From positions 1 through 38,308 of the IMG/VR virus record IMGVR_UViG_3300003691_000029: a stretch of DNA of 38,308 bases; one strand, written 5' to 3'. Positions within the stretch are counted from its first letter, which is position 1, and each line of letters opens with the position of its first letter. This document shows, in pieces, positions 4,390 through 31,130 of this stretch. Source of the stretch: a virus. Under the pieces are notes generated by a model that worked only from the letters and a program-made list of their open reading frames with translations, had not been told where the DNA came from and did not search any database. The translations under genes and the position numbers were made by a program.

Positions 4390-5406
4390 ATGAGCAATGT
4401 GAATTTAATAGTTACTTCAAATAAGAGCGAGGAGCTTGTTAAAAACAAGAAACTCCCTCTTGATTTGAAAGTCATGCTCACTCAAAGCCGTATTGAAGAC
4501 TGGTACGAGCACTGGAATGGACATGTTTATTTATCTTTTTCAGGCGGGAAAGACTCAACTGTTTTAGCCGACATTGTTTGGAGTATTTACCCTGACGTAC
4601 CGGCTGTTTTTTCAAACACTGGTTTGGAATACCCAGAGATAGTTCAGTTTGTGAAAAAGAAACTTGCTGAAGGCAGACCGATTGTAATTGTCCGGCCAGA
4701 AAGAACTTTCAGAGATGTAGTTCTTAAAGATGGATTCCCACTGGTTAGCAAGAAAGTGGCTGAGATGGTTTCTCGGATGCAGAAACCACAAACAGACAGG
4801 AACGCCAATACCAGACGACTTTATATGACTGGAGTAAGGCGGGATGGTGTTTACGTTGCAGGCTCAAAGATACCCGAAAAGTGGAAGTCGTTAATAAATG
4901 CGCCATTCAAAATAACGAATACATGCTGTGATGCTTTAAAAAAAGACCCGTTTAAGAAGTATCAAAAGGAAACTGGAAGAATGCCTATCACTGGCGTTAT
5001 GGGTAGCGAAGGTGGACGCAGAGCATTAATGGATACCTGCAACTCCTTTGATGGTAAAGCCCCTCAAAGCCGTCCAATGCTTTTCTGGGACGAAAACGAT
5101 GTATGGGAATACATACGCACCAGGGATATTGATTACTGCGAAGTGTATGACGATAGGGTTATTGATGGCCGCAAAGTTAAAGGCGAGAAGCGTACCGGCT
5201 GCATGTTCTGCGCGTTCGGGGCTCATATGGAGAAAGACACTACCCGCTTTCAGCGAATGGCTATCTCCCACCCTAAGCAGTGGAACTACTGCATAAACAA
5301 GCTGGGCATGGGTAAAGCGCTGGACTTCATAGGTGTTGAATATCACCCATTGCCAGAAGAAGAACAGCTTGAATTGTTTTACGAAGCTGATCAGAAATCA
5401 GCGTAA
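4390..5406 (+). CDS. PP-loop ATPase, PAPS reductase-like protein with CC/CxxC iron-sulfur motif
   Basis: This 338-residue protein has the adenine-nucleotide alpha-hydrolase PP-loop SGGKDS at residues 51-56 and the following SNTGLEYPE strand typical of the PAPS reductase family. Cys179-Cys180 (NTCCDALKKDP) and Cys271-x-x-Cys274 (TGCMFCAFG) give a CC-X90-CxxC pattern like the four ligands of the [4Fe-4S] cluster in APS reductases and like DndC-type proteins. The C-terminal ECGLH active-site tail of true APS/PAPS reductases is absent, since the protein ends DQKSA. I therefore doubt a role in sulfate assimilation. A nucleotide-activating or sulfur-transfer reaction, perhaps on nucleic acid, is possible but not shown. 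It lies after a terminator, in the second half of the early operon. Confidence 0.85.
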   Translation: MSNVNLIVTSNKSEELVKNKKLPLDLKVMLTQSRIEDWYEHWNGHVYLSFSGGKDSTVLADIVWSIYPDVPAVFSNTGLEYPEIVQFVKKKLAEGRPIVIVRPERTFRDVVLKDGFPLVSKKVAEMVSRMQKPQTDRNANTRRLYMTGVRRDGVYVAGSKIPEKWKSLINAPFKITNTCCDALKKDPFKKYQKETGRMPITGVMGSEGGRRALMDTCNSFDGKAPQSRPMLFWDENDVWEYIRTRDIDYCEVYDDRVIDGRKVKGEKRTGCMFCAFGAHMEKDTTRFQRMAISHPKQWNYCINKLGMGKALDFIGVEYHPLPEEEQLELFYEADQKSA

Positions 5407-6071: not shown

Positions 6072-6443
6072 ATGGGTAAAATAGCAGATAACGTTGTTGG
6101 TATTATTGGTAAGCTGGCAGGAAAGGCAACTGCTGAAGAAGAAATAACGGCAGTAGGAACGCTTGATACTCTTCAAAAGGAGGCGCGTAAGGCTTTGAGA
6201 GAAAGTGCAACTTGGAATCAAGAGTTTCATGGCAATGAGTTGGCGGCGGTTATTGCTATGCTGATAGCTTCTCGTCAAGTCTTAAGTGATAAAGAGGCTG
6301 CGCTATCAAGAGCAATCATGTTTATTGGTTCTTTCGAGCACGATGATCAATACGGTCAGAAGGCACTTAATGTGCTGGAAGACATTAACCAGCTTCTTGT
6401 TGGTGAAACAATTAGCGAATCCATGAAAAAACAGGTGAAATAA
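6072..6443 (+). CDS. Hypothetical helical protein upstream of the Tad2-like gene
   Basis: The product is about 123 residues from ATG 6072, preceded by GGTGGAG. An upstream TTG (6033) in the same frame lies within an inverted repeat and is a less likely start. The protein is almost entirely helical, with segments such as NVVGIIGKLAGKA near the start, SATWNQEFHGNELAAVIAM in the middle and QKALNVLEDINQLLVGE near the end. There is no signal peptide or catalytic motif that I recognise. It shares a stop/start overlap (TAATG) with the Tad2-like gene, so the two proteins are probably made together and may act in the same process. Confidence 0.65.
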   Translation: MGKIADNVVGIIGKLAGKATAEEEITAVGTLDTLQKEARKALRESATWNQEFHGNELAAVIAMLIASRQVLSDKEAALSRAIMFIGSFEHDDQYGQKALNVLEDINQLLVGETISESMKKQVK

Positions 6444-6934
6444 TGCAGAGTAAATTACATATTGGCACAAAACTTATTTTAGCGCAGGCAATGACTCACT
6501 TGCAGTATAACGAGTATCGAGGCTGGGAATTGCCAGAAGATGAAAACGGTGAAGACGCTGGTTTTCTGGTTGAGTATGTTGATGGTGGTAAGTCGAATCA
6601 TCCAGATCATAAAGGTTATATTTCATGGTCTCCGAAAGAGGTATTTAATAATTTTTACAAATCCTCTGGTGAAATGTCTTTTGGTATGGCTGTTGAGGCA
6701 GCAAGGCAAGGTTATAAAGTTGCGCGTGCTGGCTGGAATGGGGCTGGAATGTTTGCTTATATTGTTCCGGCCAATTCATATCCCGCTCAAACTGAAATGA
6801 TAGAGGGAATATTTGAAAACGATATGGTTCCTTATCGTGAGTATTTGGCGCTTAAAACTGCTCAGAACGATGTTGCTATGTGGTCTCCAAGTGGAAGCGA
6901 CTCATTGGCTAATGATTGGGTTATTGTGGATTAA
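6443..6934 (+). CDS. Tad2-like (DUF2829) candidate anti-Thoeris protein with extra N-terminal domain
   Basis: This 163-residue protein has two parts. Residues about 78-163 fit the DUF2829/Tad2 pattern: MSFGMAVEAARQGYKVARAGWNG, then a beta-rich core, PYREYLALKTAQ, and MWSPSGSDSLANDWVIV at the end. Tad2 proteins of other phages bind cyclic ADP-ribose-type signals and block Thoeris defence. Residues about 5-75 (IGTKLILAQAMTHLQYNEYRGW, EYVDGGKSNHPDHKGYISWSPKEVF) form a separate small domain that is widespread in phage proteins and also occurs without Tad2. The anti-defence role is inferred from the family. Being the last gene before a strong terminator, in an early operon, suits an accessory counter-defence gene. 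Confidence 0.82.
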   Translation: MQSKLHIGTKLILAQAMTHLQYNEYRGWELPEDENGEDAGFLVEYVDGGKSNHPDHKGYISWSPKEVFNNFYKSSGEMSFGMAVEAARQGYKVARAGWNGAGMFAYIVPANSYPAQTEMIEGIFENDMVPYREYLALKTAQNDVAMWSPSGSDSLANDWVIVD

Positions 6935-6960: not shown

Positions 6961-6986
6961 AAAAGTCGCTTAATTGCGGCTTTTTT
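6961..6986 (+). terminator. Strong Rho-independent terminator ending the rightward early operon
   Basis: AAAAGTCGC (6961-6969) pairs with GCGGCTTTT (6976-6984) in a 9-bp stem with one G-T pair and a TTAATT loop, followed by further T. It separates the early genes from the lysis and late genes. The 50 bases after it hold only a weak promoter match (TTGCTA, 18-base spacer, GATAAA at 7009). Confidence 0.85.
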
Positions 6987-24554: not shown

Positions 24555-27500
24555 GTGTCTGAGTTCATTAAAAATTTTAGAGTAGAAAACCCTCAGTATA
24601 ATGATATGGCCGATGACCAATTGGTTTCGGCACTTCACAATAAATACTATTCAGACATTCCTGCTGAGCAGTTCAGTCAAAAGATTGGCTATCAGTCAGT
24701 TCCACTTGAGCAAATAACCCCTGCTATTCAGCAACCAATCGTACAGCAAGACCAGCAGATTGATGCTTATACAGGTGCGGCCATGAAGGTTGCGCCTGAA
24801 AAGCCAATGCTTGACCTTATTGGCGAGAAGCTTAAGAACTGGGGGGCTGGTGCTGGTGAGCGATTTGGTGATGTTGGTAGCGCTTTACTTAAAACCATTG
24901 AAACAACGGGCCGAGGTCTAGAGCAAAAGGCACCAATGGGAGGCTTTGTTTGGGGTGATGACGACATTATTCCATCTTATAAATCACCTGAAGAATGGGC
25001 TGAGCGTGACGCTAAACCTATATTATTGAAAGGTGCCAAGGCGCTTGAAGGTATTGATCTTGGTTATCAAGAAAAGGTTGGTTGGGAAGATGTTAAAAAA
25101 TCATTCTCAGAAGGCGGAGCTTTAAGTGGTAGCGCTTATGCTGATGTTCTTGAGTACGGCATTGAACAGGGCGTTAAATCAATTCCTGATATGGTTGCTG
25201 CGGTTTATGCTCTTCCTACATACATTTTTGCACGTTCAGGTGAAATAGGCGAGGAGAGAGCTAAGAATAAAGGTAAGGCACGAGCAGATATTGAAGATGT
25301 TCTTGAGGCTGCGCCATTTGCTGCAGCTTCAGCATTACTTGAGCGTATTGGTGCTAAAGGGATGACCTCTGGCGCCAAAGAGGAACTTGGCAAGGAAATG
25401 CTCAAGGCTGGCTTAAAAGAGTCGGCTAAGCGTTCAGCTAAGGCTGGCGGCAAAGCTCTGAGCAAAGAGGCTGGAACTGAAGCAATTCAAGAGGGAATGC
25501 TTGAATATGTCGGTGAGAGATACGGCACCAATGCAAAAATGGACTTCATGGAAGCGCTTGATCGTGCTGCAGCTGGAGCTGTTGCTGGTGGCGTTATGGG
25601 TGGCACTATTGGCACAGCTTCGTCGGTAGTAAATGAAATTAACTATTCTCCTCAAAAAGAATTAGCTAAAGCTCTGGAGGCTGAGATTGACGCCACGACT
25701 ATCGAAGGTGCTGATCAGGCAGCAATAGACGCACTGAAACCAGAGCGAGGACAAGTCGTAGTAGACCAGCAAGCAAAGCAAGAAGCAGATATTAAGACGG
25801 TACCAGAAACAAAGGCAGAGACCGTACTACCAACCCAATTAACAGCAGATCAGCCGATACCTGACCAGATGCCCCAGCAAGAACCTGTTGCCATTGATAT
25901 TCCTCAGCATGTTGCTGATGTAGTAGTGGATACTGAAAGCGTACCGTCAAAGCGTGCTGATATTGAGCCAGTCTCGGAGGCTCAGCAAGATATTATCTCA
26001 GTCGAAAAGCCAGAGCAAAGGTTGGATCAACCTGTCACAAAGACTGAGCCTATGGTCGATACAAAGGTGAAGCCTGATGCTGCATTAACACCAATGCCAG
26101 AAAAGGTTCATTTTGGTTTTTCAACTTATCAGCCAAAACCGATCACAGGAGACTTATATCGCGAGGCTAGTGTTGAAAGTCTTTCTGATTTGTTGCGTGA
26201 AACGCTTTCAAATAATGTTGAGCGTGGTAGCGCTACTCCTGTTTTTGTTGCAGACAATAAAGATATTGCGCTTGGGCAAGGTAAAAACAAAGGAGTAATG
26301 ATTGAGTTTGATGGAAACCTTGTCTCTGGTGATATTGTTAAAAAGCCTGGCATGATTGAAGGGGTTACAAGTAAAGAATACAAAACAGATTTTGTTGGTC
26401 GTGATGCAATCAAAAGATTTACCTTGCCTAAAGGTGTACGCCTTACTGGTGCTGGAAAAGTAATGGCAAGACATCATTTTGATGTTAAAAAGAATGATAA
26501 CGGAAGTATTACTTACACCAGAAAAGATTTAGCTGGGCAGATAGGCGGTGTTATTGATAAGCCTGCTGCTGAAAAAGATACATTTACTTTCGGAGAAAAT
26601 ACCTTTGTTCGTGGAGATTATGCCAAAGCAGTAAAGAGCGATAGTAAAGGAACTTTCTTTGATGCTGGTGATATCGAAGGTATTTCACAAGCCAAAAAAC
26701 AAGTAAAAATTGGCGGCACATGGCATGACTTCGGTTCGATTGTTAAAGCAGACCGGGCAAAGGAAATAAAACCAAAAACAAAACCATTATCTGAGGTAGT
26801 TGCCAAAGCTGGCAAAGAGGCAGAGGGTGGATTTACTGAAGCAGACAAAGTGCCTGAAGCTAAAGTTGATTATTCTACTGATGCTATTGGCTCGTTGAAC
26901 GATTTTGCTAAGTCGATTGTTGATCAAACAGCTACTGCTGAAGATATTAAGGCGGATGCTGAGCGGGTAATTGCTAGCAAAGATAAAATTATTAAACAGT
27001 TTAGTGAGCGCAAAGTCACCAAGGCTATGCTTCAGAATATTGTGCAGTCACCACGAACCAACTTGAAGAAGCCGCAGCTTGTTAAGCTGGCTTATCAGCA
27101 AATGCTCAGAGCTCATTCTTTTGGTGATGGTGTTGCTTCCACTTTTGATGGCAGTGAGTCATTTGAAGAGCAAACAATTAACCATATACGAAACCAGACG
27201 CAAGGGGATGTAGATAATGATTATGAAAAACAAAGGCAGCTTAGAGCGAAAGAGCAAGAGGGCTCAAAAACAGATGGCGAGGCTGCTGAAGCTTCGGCGG
27301 CAGCTAAAAGAGTTCGCATCCACAGATTTAAAGGAGAAGAGCTGAACGATATTGAAAGTTTGCTGACTTTTGCTGACTTATTGCCAGGGCATCGAGTCCT
27401 TAATATATACACAGGAAAGGGGAGTATAGCTGACAATATTCGTCACACTCAAAATGACACTGATATACATGTCTATGGTGATGATAGTGCAATCAATCAA

Positions 27501-30500
27501 AAGGCATCAGATAAAGGCTACGAAACACCTTCAAAGAAAAACCTAAGTGGATATGATCGAGTTATAGCAACATTTCATGAGAAGGGTGTAGATGGCCTTA
27601 ATATGGCTGTGTCTGCACTTGATATGGTTAGGCCTGGTGGAAAGCTTATTGCCATGCTCGATAACTCTTTATTAAAGACTGGGCAAGCAGCTAAAGATTT
27701 TAAAGTATGGGTTGATAAGTCTGGTCATAGCATTGAAAGGGCTAAGTCAGAAGGTAGCTTTATACTAACTATTGATAAAAACGATAATCAAACTCTGGAT
27801 TATAAGAGCCAAGACAGCAAGATAACTAAGCCTGCTAAGGAAGGCGAGCGGATTTATAACGCCCCAGGGCATAACTTTATTGGTTTATTCAAATCCACTG
27901 GCATTCCTGAACGCCGTGAATTTGTAATGATCGAAGATAGAAAGCTGAAGATACCAGATAAGCCGCAGCGCATTGAGCCAATTATGCGCAAACTTACTCA
28001 GATCATGGGGAGGCGTATTTACTTCGGTAAAATAAAGGGCAAGTCTCAAGAGGGGTTTTATCGTCCTGGTGTTGGTGAGGTTCGTACTCGTCGCAAGAAT
28101 GATGTAGAGGTGCTGGCTCATGAAATGGCTCACTATCTTGATGTTTACTCTAATGTGACACTGCCAAACTTCCAAAATCTTTACAAAGATAGTCGTTATG
28201 TAGATGAAGTTATGGCTCTTAGTTATACCGATGCCACGCCAGATCTTCAGCGCATAGAGGGGTTTGCTGAGTTTGTCCGCCTATGGCTAACAAATGCGCA
28301 AGAAGCTCAGCTTAGAGCACCAGGGTTCTATGATGCATTTACTAGCACATTGGCGCGTGACCGGAAGTTATTAAACCCTATGCGTGATATGCAGGACTTA
28401 ATGCATAAATTTTTCTTTCAGGGGCCTGACAAGCTTGGCCAGGCGCTTATTGGTAATGATCAATCATTCCTTCAAACCTTTGATGAGTGGAAGTACCGCA
28501 GAGACTCACGCATTCGTCAACAGACCATTGATAGATTTCATGCCGCTAGAATAATCGAGCAGGAGCTTACCAGAAAGATAAGCGGGGCCAATGAGTCAGC
28601 ATGGAAGCAGTTCAGGATTGCCAATGGTGGAGCTGAAGGTATTGCTGATTATGTTATGAACTACGGGACTGTAAACTTTGATGAGTCTGGTGATTTAAAG
28701 CGTACAGGTGAAAGCCTTCATGAGGTGCTTCAGCCATTAAAAACAGTTGATCTAAATCAAGAACACAAAGGCGATAAAAAGATTGACCTTTTAATGCGTT
28801 ATTTTGCAGGACGTAGGGCGCTTGAGCTTCACCGGCAGAAACGTGAAAACCTTATACCAAAGGAAACCGCAAAAGAATGGGCTCGCCTTGGCAGTACTTA
28901 CCCTGTATTTGAATCGATTCATAAAAGTTACCAAGCATTTAATCAGCGCTTAATGGATTTCTATGTTGATGCAGGAATGATCACGGCTGATGGTCGCAGA
29001 ACAATGGAGTCAATGAATAAGGACTATGTGCCATTCAACCGAATACGAGAAACATTGACTGATGGAAAGGGGGCCGGTTCTGCAGGACTTCAGCGCCTTA
29101 AGGGGGGAACGGCAAACCTAAATGATATTCTTGTGAATATTCAGGATGGAATAGCTACCAATATTAGATCAGCTCTGAGTAATCACGCTAAGCAGCGTCT
29201 TTATCAGTATATTTCTGGCCACAAGGATGGTGCTATTTTTGCCACCAGAATTGCGCCAGACTCACGAAAGGTGAAGGTATATCAAGATGAAATGGTTCAA
29301 AAGATTGGCAAGGTACTTGAGGCTTCAGGTATTGAGATTGATGGCGAGATTGATTTATCTGATCCAAGCCTTACTGATTTCTGGCAGCATGGCGTTAAGC
29401 CTCAGCTTAATGAGTCTGGCAATATAGTTGATACTGTTATTATTGATGGAAAGAGAAAGTATTACGAGGTGCAAGACCCACTTCTTCAGGAAATGCTCAT
29501 AGGGATGAACCCTGAAAGCTATAGCTCTTTTATGAATGTGATGTTCGGTGCGAAAAACTTCTTCACAAGAATGATCACACTGGGAATTGAATTTACTGGT
29601 GCAAACCTTGTGCGCGACACTATAGGCGCAACGTTTATCAGTAAGAATAACTTCAGGCCGTTCATTGATTCGTTTAAGGGTATGTATTCATTCATTGCCA
29701 GGGATCAGCATTTTCAAGACTTCATGCGCTCAGGTGGTGGATACTCTAGCAGGCTACATGCCACCACAAAAGAAGGCGTAGCTCGTAGAAAAGTATCAGT
29801 CGATGAGTTTGGTGTTACTACTGGCCCAGAGCGTATTCTCAGCGCCATTGATAATATTGCAAGTGCCTTTGAGTACGGAACCCGAATAGGTGAGTTCAGG
29901 CTTGCCAAGAAGAACAACAGATCAGATCTTGATGCTGCCTTTGCAGCAAGAGAAATATCAACAGACTTCAGCGTTCTTGGTGCTAACCACTTTTTAACTG
30001 GCTATATCCGCACAGTTCCATTTTTGAACGCTATGGTTCAATCTCAAGATCGGGTGTTTAGAGAAGCAATTGTTAAGAGGCAGTATGATGGTAACCCATC
30101 AGGTATGGCAATGAAGGCATTTTTAGGTTTAACAATTCCTACATTAATCCTGTATCTGATTAACAAAGATGATGATGATTACAAGCAAATTCCTGATTAT
30201 GAAAAGCGTACCAACTGGCATGTTAAGGTCGGTGATGGTCAATTCATTAAAATACCTCGCCCTTATGATGTTGGCTTTGTGTATGCAACAATGCCAGAGA
30301 TATTTTTCAAATTTTTAGAGGATGAAAAAGGCAAAGAGTTTAGCGATGGCATGCTGTGGACGCTTACTCAAATGTATGGAATTGACGGTACTCCGGCCAT
30401 GATGACAGGGTGGTGGGATCTGGTGCGTAATGAGAAGTGGACAGGCGCACCGGTAGTGCCAAGCTCACTATCAAATGTTTCAGCAACAGAGCAGTACACA

Positions 30501-31130
30501 TCAAATACTAGCGAAACGTTTATTCGCTTGGGTGAAGCTACAGGAATGAGCCCTATCAAGGCAGAGCATATGTTTAAAGCCTATACCGGCTATCTTGGTG
30601 GTTATTTGATGTGGGGAACAGACCACTTGCTATGGGATGAATCTAAGTTTGGAGCTAAGCCAGATAGCAAGGCTTCTGATAATGTTTTCTTGCGCAGGTT
30701 CTTGACGCCAGATGTAAGGCCAAGCAGCTCTGCTATGGAGAAATTTTTCGACCTGAAAGAGAAATCTGACGAGATAGTTTCTACGTTCAAGCAAACCATT
30801 GATGTACGACGAGCAATTAAGGGCAAGCTAGGTAAGGGGAAATTCAAGGACGATAAATTCTTTGGGTTGTCAGGAAAAGAAAAGGAGGTTTTGTTTGCGT
30901 TAAATGACTCAATGAATCAGCTGATAAAAATACTTTATGGTAAGGAAGGCATTAAAACAGCAGAACTTAGTGTAAAGCATGATAAACAATTAACTGGTAA
31001 AGAAAAGCGCCAGAAGCTAGACAACCTATGGCGGGTGCGAAATAAAGCGTTTATGTCATACTACACTAAAGCTAATGAGGCCTTGCAGAAAGCTAAGGTT
31101 GAGTCAGAGAAATTAAATAAGGGGAAATAA
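24555..31130 (+). CDS. Giant polyvalent ejection protein with zincin protease motif
   Basis: This 2191-residue protein has GTG start 24555, chosen from AGGAG at 24543-24547. The N terminus ENPQYNDMADDQLVSALHNK is typical of phage polyvalent/internal virion proteins. Gly/Ala-rich helices (residues about 210-230 and 335-360) may interact with membrane. Residues about 540-640 form an unassigned alpha/beta domain starting GDLYREASVESLSDLLRE. Residues about 930-1060 resemble a Rossmann methyltransferase (HRVLNIYTGKGSIADNI, then VRPGGKLIAMLDNS) without a clear NPPY motif. H1189-E-M-A-H1193, with E1239 in EGFAEFVR, makes a zincin metalloprotease site. The last 700 residues resemble large polyvalent-associated domains (LPD38 type is my best guess). 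It takes the gp16 position and is probably ejected into the host. Confidence 0.82.
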   Translation: MSEFIKNFRVENPQYNDMADDQLVSALHNKYYSDIPAEQFSQKIGYQSVPLEQITPAIQQPIVQQDQQIDAYTGAAMKVAPEKPMLDLIGEKLKNWGAGAGERFGDVGSALLKTIETTGRGLEQKAPMGGFVWGDDDIIPSYKSPEEWAERDAKPILLKGAKALEGIDLGYQEKVGWEDVKKSFSEGGALSGSAYADVLEYGIEQGVKSIPDMVAAVYALPTYIFARSGEIGEERAKNKGKARADIEDVLEAAPFAAASALLERIGAKGMTSGAKEELGKEMLKAGLKESAKRSAKAGGKALSKEAGTEAIQEGMLEYVGERYGTNAKMDFMEALDRAAAGAVAGGVMGGTIGTASSVVNEINYSPQKELAKALEAEIDATTIEGADQAAIDALKPERGQVVVDQQAKQEADIKTVPETKAETVLPTQLTADQPIPDQMPQQEPVAIDIPQHVADVVVDTESVPSKRADIEPVSEAQQDIISVEKPEQRLDQPVTKTEPMVDTKVKPDAALTPMPEKVHFGFSTYQPKPITGDLYREASVESLSDLLRETLSNNVERGSATPVFVADNKDIALGQGKNKGVMIEFDGNLVSGDIVKKPGMIEGVTSKEYKTDFVGRDAIKRFTLPKGVRLTGAGKVMARHHFDVKKNDNGSITYTRKDLAGQIGGVIDKPAAEKDTFTFGENTFVRGDYAKAVKSDSKGTFFDAGDIEGISQAKKQVKIGGTWHDFGSIVKADRAKEIKPKTKPLSEVVAKAGKEAEGGFTEADKVPEAKVDYSTDAIGSLNDFAKSIVDQTATAEDIKADAERVIASKDKIIKQFSERKVTKAMLQNIVQSPRTNLKKPQLVKLAYQQMLRAHSFGDGVASTFDGSESFEEQTINHIRNQTQGDVDNDYEKQRQLRAKEQEGSKTDGEAAEASAAAKRVRIHRFKGEELNDIESLLTFADLLPGHRVLNIYTGKGSIADNIRHTQNDTDIHVYGDDSAINQKASDKGYETPSKKNLSGYDRVIATFHEKGVDGLNMAVSALDMVRPGGKLIAMLDNSLLKTGQAAKDFKVWVDKSGHSIERAKSEGSFILTIDKNDNQTLDYKSQDSKITKPAKEGERIYNAPGHNFIGLFKSTGIPERREFVMIEDRKLKIPDKPQRIEPIMRKLTQIMGRRIYFGKIKGKSQEGFYRPGVGEVRTRRKNDVEVLAHEMAHYLDVYSNVTLPNFQNLYKDSRYVDEVMALSYTDATPDLQRIEGFAEFVRLWLTNAQEAQLRAPGFYDAFTSTLARDRKLLNPMRDMQDLMHKFFFQGPDKLGQALIGNDQSFLQTFDEWKYRRDSRIRQQTIDRFHAARIIEQELTRKISGANESAWKQFRIANGGAEGIADYVMNYGTVNFDESGDLKRTGESLHEVLQPLKTVDLNQEHKGDKKIDLLMRYFAGRRALELHRQKRENLIPKETAKEWARLGSTYPVFESIHKSYQAFNQRLMDFYVDAGMITADGRRTMESMNKDYVPFNRIRETLTDGKGAGSAGLQRLKGGTANLNDILVNIQDGIATNIRSALSNHAKQRLYQYISGHKDGAIFATRIAPDSRKVKVYQDEMVQKIGKVLEASGIEIDGEIDLSDPSLTDFWQHGVKPQLNESGNIVDTVIIDGKRKYYEVQDPLLQEMLIGMNPESYSSFMNVMFGAKNFFTRMITLGIEFTGANLVRDTIGATFISKNNFRPFIDSFKGMYSFIARDQHFQDFMRSGGGYSSRLHATTKEGVARRKVSVDEFGVTTGPERILSAIDNIASAFEYGTRIGEFRLAKKNNRSDLDAAFAAREISTDFSVLGANHFLTGYIRTVPFLNAMVQSQDRVFREAIVKRQYDGNPSGMAMKAFLGLTIPTLILYLINKDDDDYKQIPDYEKRTNWHVKVGDGQFIKIPRPYDVGFVYATMPEIFFKFLEDEKGKEFSDGMLWTLTQMYGIDGTPAMMTGWWDLVRNEKWTGAPVVPSSLSNVSATEQYTSNTSETFIRLGEATGMSPIKAEHMFKAYTGYLGGYLMWGTDHLLWDESKFGAKPDSKASDNVFLRRFLTPDVRPSSSAMEKFFDLKEKSDEIVSTFKQTIDVRRAIKGKLGKGKFKDDKFFGLSGKEKEVLFALNDSMNQLIKILYGKEGIKTAELSVKHDKQLTGKEKRQKLDNLWRVRNKAFMSYYTKANEALQKAKVESEKLNKGK

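Follow-up and report, generated by a model that had tools for sequence, protein, structure and literature searches.

The stretch of DNA analysed here, record IMGVR_UViG_3300003691_000029 in its full length of 38,308 nucleotides (hereafter the window), comes from a BA3-like marine podovirus, with portal, scaffold and head proteins similar to those of Vibrio and Thalassomonas phages. At the locus under study, 2 coupled genes are followed by a hairpin (Table 1). An earlier sequence-only reading had recognised 2 domains in the product of the second gene, and the ATG start, the length of 163 residues and the Pfam and PHROGs matches confirmed a real two-domain ORF. Its ATG shares one base with the stop codon that ends the upstream gene (TAATG at 6441-6445), in agreement with the coupling to a helical gene that had been proposed; this upstream gene gave no significant match in Pfam or PHROGs and has homologues in 20 phage records (Vibrio, Thalassomonas, Shewanella). 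The two-domain gene had also been described as the last one before an early terminator. A terminator-like hairpin does begin 26 bases past its stop, closing the slot described below, but calling it early is a supposition, since the lysis genes (M15 endolysin and holin) come after it on the same strand. Elsewhere in the window, a phosphoadenosine phosphosulfate reductase-like gene (phrog_424; 4390-5406) lies 3 genes upstream of the coupled pair, and positions 24555-31130 encode a protein of 2191 residues that matches, over its C-terminal two thirds, phrog_15406 (annotated as a DNA methyltransferase).

Table 1. Features of the locus, in window coordinates.
Feature	Position	Strand	Evidence and remarks
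Upstream helical gene	6072..6443	+	ATG start at 6072 assigned by inspection; translational coupling to the two-domain gene
Two-domain protein CDS	6443..6934	+	ORF listing; ATG start, 163 aa; phrog_872 whole-chain match, E=9e-57
N module, aa 1-75	6443..6667	+	Uncharacterised beta-alpha-beta-beta-alpha domain; conserved in aligned modules
Tad2 domain, aa 78-162	6674..6928	+	PF11195, 78.7 bits; Foldseek top match ModTad2:His-ADPR (9eib)
Terminator-like hairpin	6961..6984	+	9 pairs, 4 GC pairs, T-rich tail; consensus match only

Pfam placed the Tad2-like family PF11195 on residues 78-162, far above its cutoff of 25 bits and over the entire model (positions 1-73 of 73), as the sole domain of the whole protein, with nothing on the N-terminal part. 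A sequence search of the PDB returned first ModTad2, the anti-Thoeris 2 protein of a Myroides odoratus prophage (9eib, E=3e-27; also 8v3e), with AcrIIA7/HgmTad2 (8kbi) and SPO1 Tad2 (8sme/8smf) ranking lower, and the identity of the Tad2 half was 55-56% to ModTad2 versus 36-38% to the other 2 proteins. AlphaFold modelled the full chain as a monomer with a pLDDT of 94.3 and a pTM of 0.82. Every significant Foldseek match of this model was a Tad2 chain, with ModTad2 carrying His-ADPR on top (9eib, E=5e-10), and the predicted Tad2 fold reached a TM-score of 0.82 against 9eib chain B, by target length. Judged by sequence and predicted fold, the C-terminal half (residues 78-162) is a genuine Tad2 domain, as had been claimed.

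The ligand site of Tad2 is built from the loops beta1-beta2, beta3-beta4 and beta4-alpha3, strand beta4 and helix alpha3 (review, PMC12043709). The motif common to the SPO1, Myroides and Hgm proteins (R..GWNG, W..S..D.L..DW) is present in the window protein; at the level of this motif the pocket-lining residues are intact (GWNG 97-100, W147, S150, D153, L155 and D158-W159), with none of the loss of pocket residues that had been named as counter-evidence, and the motif positions rank among the most conserved across 87 relatives. SPO1 Tad2 and HgmTad2/AcrIIA7 share family, fold and core motif with the window domain but are single-domain proteins with another insert between strands 2 and 5. ModTad2, of the same predicted fold, additionally has in common with it a WxPSxSD-type motif and a Y-R-x-Y-L-A-L-K-T stretch, and differs in having only one domain, about 88 residues long, and no N module.

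ModTad2 has been reported to bind His-ADPR, the type II Thoeris signal (PMC13299392). These likenesses suggest that sequestration of an ADPR-type Thoeris signal is the most likely function of the Tad2 half; our best guess for the ligand is His-ADPR, with an even chance of being right, and a tree of Tad2 domains built for ligand class did not resolve ModTad2 with the window domain. In the mechanism we propose, the domain would very likely oligomerise like known Tad2 proteins, presumably as a tetramer, and would capture the ADPR-type signal made by a TIR protein, so that the suicide effector would stay off.

The N-terminal ~75 residues had been described as a second phage domain with no assigned role, and this description held: the module occurs in 120 phage records and in more than 540 viral-contig stretches and has no Pfam name, although 2 smaller PHROGs families match the N part only. 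Modelled alone, it reached a pLDDT of 95.8 with the secondary structure seen in the full chain, and sequence and model alike indicate a separate compact domain. It had no PDB match by sequence search or by fold (Foldseek, best E 1.7), and its good matches among viral structure models, some of them chains of 65-68 residues, apparently belong to its own family. Profile comparison revealed no relation to Tad2, Acb4 or crAss001_48, with hhalign scores against Tad2 and Acb4 at chance. Among 108 aligned modules with different partners, K10, Y59, S61 and P64 are invariant and 22 further positions are at least 90% constant whatever the partner; the window module deviates at one of these 22 (H19, usually R). 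When 399 genomes were sampled from the phylum of a Pseudomonas carrier, the module matched in the centre genome itself alone, which shows only that it is rare in chromosomes. No open paper on the module or its fusions was found.

To define the company of this module, 154 ORFs bearing it were collected and classified with local models. N-Tad2 accounted for 117 of them, N-crAss001_48 for 23, both partners for 2 and other arrangements for 12, Tad2 being thus carried by 119 of the 154. The fusion, hinted to be unusual, is instead a widespread architecture: phrog_872 (172 positions) consists of the N module and then Tad2, the full-length arrangement of the window protein, whose residues 4-163 align on its positions 14-172, and at least 80% of the window protein is covered in 90 phage records. 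This architecture was therefore already known through phrog_872, a family listed as of unknown function on which no paper was found; what is new is the company of the N module (Tad2, Tad1, Acb4, crAss001_48 and a hairpin). In L105 the module is joined to Tad1 (PF24729 barely above cutoff; E=1e-17 to Tad1 8kbb), and L109 and L125 have a tail like this one by sequence likeness only. Acb4 (PF13876), a family of anti-CBASS sponges (PMC11722364), follows the module in L130 (Pfam), precedes it in L155 (local model), encloses it together with a C-terminal crAss001_48 in L027 (955-1638, Pfam) and falls slightly below cutoff in L149. A phrog_1761/phrog_5120 hairpin lies C-terminal to the module in L026 and L029, the tails of L019, L059 and L071 have weak or no identification, and L153 and L158 are copies almost without a tail. 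The 53 loci from bacterial genomes, a set not reduced to the best 80, carried Tad2, crAss001_48, Tad1, Acb4 or no partner. No known domain outside anti-defence was present among the partners in the 154 collected ORFs. Tad1 and Acb4 belong to other families and do not occur in the window protein, yet are joined to its N module elsewhere. In phage Y3 an N-Tad2 gene and a gene of the Acb4 family overlap by 4 nt, and an Acb4-like ORF lay in the flank examined or in the same ORF at 36 of the 154 loci, a raw count without a background rate.

The identities of the N and Tad2 parts were uncorrelated across pairs (r = 0.00 for ten full-length proteins, 0.21 for 87), as expected if the modules were shuffled; the 87 proteins were selected on the N module, and their higher N conservation may partly reflect this bias. 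Because the near-invariant N residues are the same for all partners and the 2 parts vary independently in identity, a change of signal specificity through the N domain, one of the roles offered previously, is not favoured, and among those roles a second target fits best. The recurrence of the module next to several unrelated signal-soaking phage proteins makes an anti-immunity role probable, but such association is not proof of it, since the frequent partner crAss001_48 lacks a known function.

The strongest functional hint for the window gene came from the comparison of its slot among BA3-like relatives, directly 3' of the conserved upstream helical gene and 5' of the lysis genes. The slot holds N-Tad2 (41E34.2, L168), N-hairpin in Vibrio phages 1.183.O and 1.184.A, Acb3 (PF25187) in BA3 (53.9 bits versus a cutoff of 27, in a short copy spanning positions 2-100 of 245), an Acb4-RyR single protein in Vibrio phage FGH (L163:2877-3545), Acb4-Tad2 in L253, Acb4 alone in L255 and likewise, by sequence, in L254, and small unassigned proteins in L249-L252, while it is empty in 1.211.A. 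Phage RyR-domain proteins (RyDEP) remove Thoeris signals of the ADPR type by degrading or sequestering them (PMC13232231); these proteins, Acb3 and Acb4 are separate families with no part in the window protein. Since the slot genes of known function all act against nucleotide immune signalling, the slot can be regarded as an exchange site for such suppressors, which strongly supports the counter-defence location that had been proposed; this setting and the fusion company of the N module make the window gene very probably a counter-defence gene. In addition, the Tad2 of L253, similar in appearance and joined to Acb4, suggests that the N module and Acb4 are interchangeable N-terminal modules.

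Two further observations concern the occupants themselves. The Acb4-RyR protein of FGH apparently combines, by its sequence, anti-CBASS and anti-Thoeris activity on a single chain, and the small slot proteins at L249:3227-3418 and L251:3239-3637, one of them cysteine-rich, are possible new counter-defence genes.

The best overall explanation, which we consider probable, is a two-module counter-defence protein in which a Tad2 sponge and an interchangeable N module occupy an exchange slot; that the protein acts in counter-defence with a working Tad2 sponge half is highly probable. The interpretation given by the sequence-only reading is partly supported. The N module, joined interchangeably in phages to Tad2, Tad1, Acb4 and helical-hairpin domains, would most likely be a further anti-signalling module, which would either bind a different nucleotide signal itself or make the sponge more avid. 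Whether it binds a signal in its own right we can answer only with a tentative yes, a little short of an even chance. Equally tentatively, it may represent an undescribed sponge family whose "polysponge" combinations with Tad1, Tad2, Acb4 and hairpins disarm several nucleotide-signalling defences.

The module could instead be a scaffold that oligomerises or stabilises its partner and multiplies the binding sites of the sponge with no ligand of its own. The sponges known so far form oligomers whose pockets lie where protomers meet (PMC11722364), the module is joined to sponges with differing ligands and the pTM of the full chain suggests a fairly fixed two-domain arrangement; however, the partner families form tetramers or hexamers by themselves, the conservation of the module is strong for every partner and includes polar and aromatic positions, and nearly tail-less copies (L153 and L158) exist, and we regard the scaffold as unlikely. 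It is improbable, too, that the module recognises a conserved protein of the host or the phage, as another defence target or a localisation factor, with 2 unrelated activities fused in one chain: conservation across partners and host phyla would suit a protein target as well as a small molecule, but no known protein-binding fold was matched and the partners are signal suppressors and uncharacterised helical domains only. As for the Tad2 domain, PF11195 is broad and few of its members have been tested, so that it might have lost sponge activity or have another role, the gene then being no antagonist of Thoeris or CBASS; the 55% identity to ModTad2, the intact signature motif and the slot shared with Acb3, Acb4 and RyR genes render this very unlikely. 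Finally, a degenerate Tad2 duplicate, called to mind by the superficial resemblance of YLVEY...GYISWSP in the N module to YLALK...WSPS in Tad2, was rejected on profile-profile comparison (probability 0.1%) and on Foldseek against Tad2 (at chance, E=7.2), leaving it with a negligible chance.

If a second anti-signalling module is indeed what the N part represents, a widespread uncharacterised phage domain could be assigned to counter-defence from its constant company, phages would assemble immune-signal sponges out of interchangeable parts, and the BA3-like slot would supply a ready-made set of exchangeable suppressors that could be tested directly. crAss001_48 and the phrog_5120 hairpin, both helical families, would also be flagged as further candidates. 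crAss001_48 (PF21825) is repeatedly joined to the N module, Tad2 and Acb4 in varying order (L013:580-1275, L017:3998-4426, L026:2797-3309 and L027:955-1638), and these recurrent fusions make it a candidate counter-defence module. The phrog_5120-type hairpin was considered as an Acb2 or Tad1 hairpin and rejected as such, Pfam, profile searching of the PDB and an hhalign comparison with Tad1 all being negative. This hairpin-like domain of ~57 residues (HLPxxLQxVSKP...LRKLLEAKDCFVRA; phrog_1761/phrog_5120), a candidate for a putative signal sponge, is highly conserved, is found joined to the N module (L164:2877-3299, L165:2802-3224, L026:3363-3788 and L029:2995-3402) and has more than 580 viral-contig relatives.
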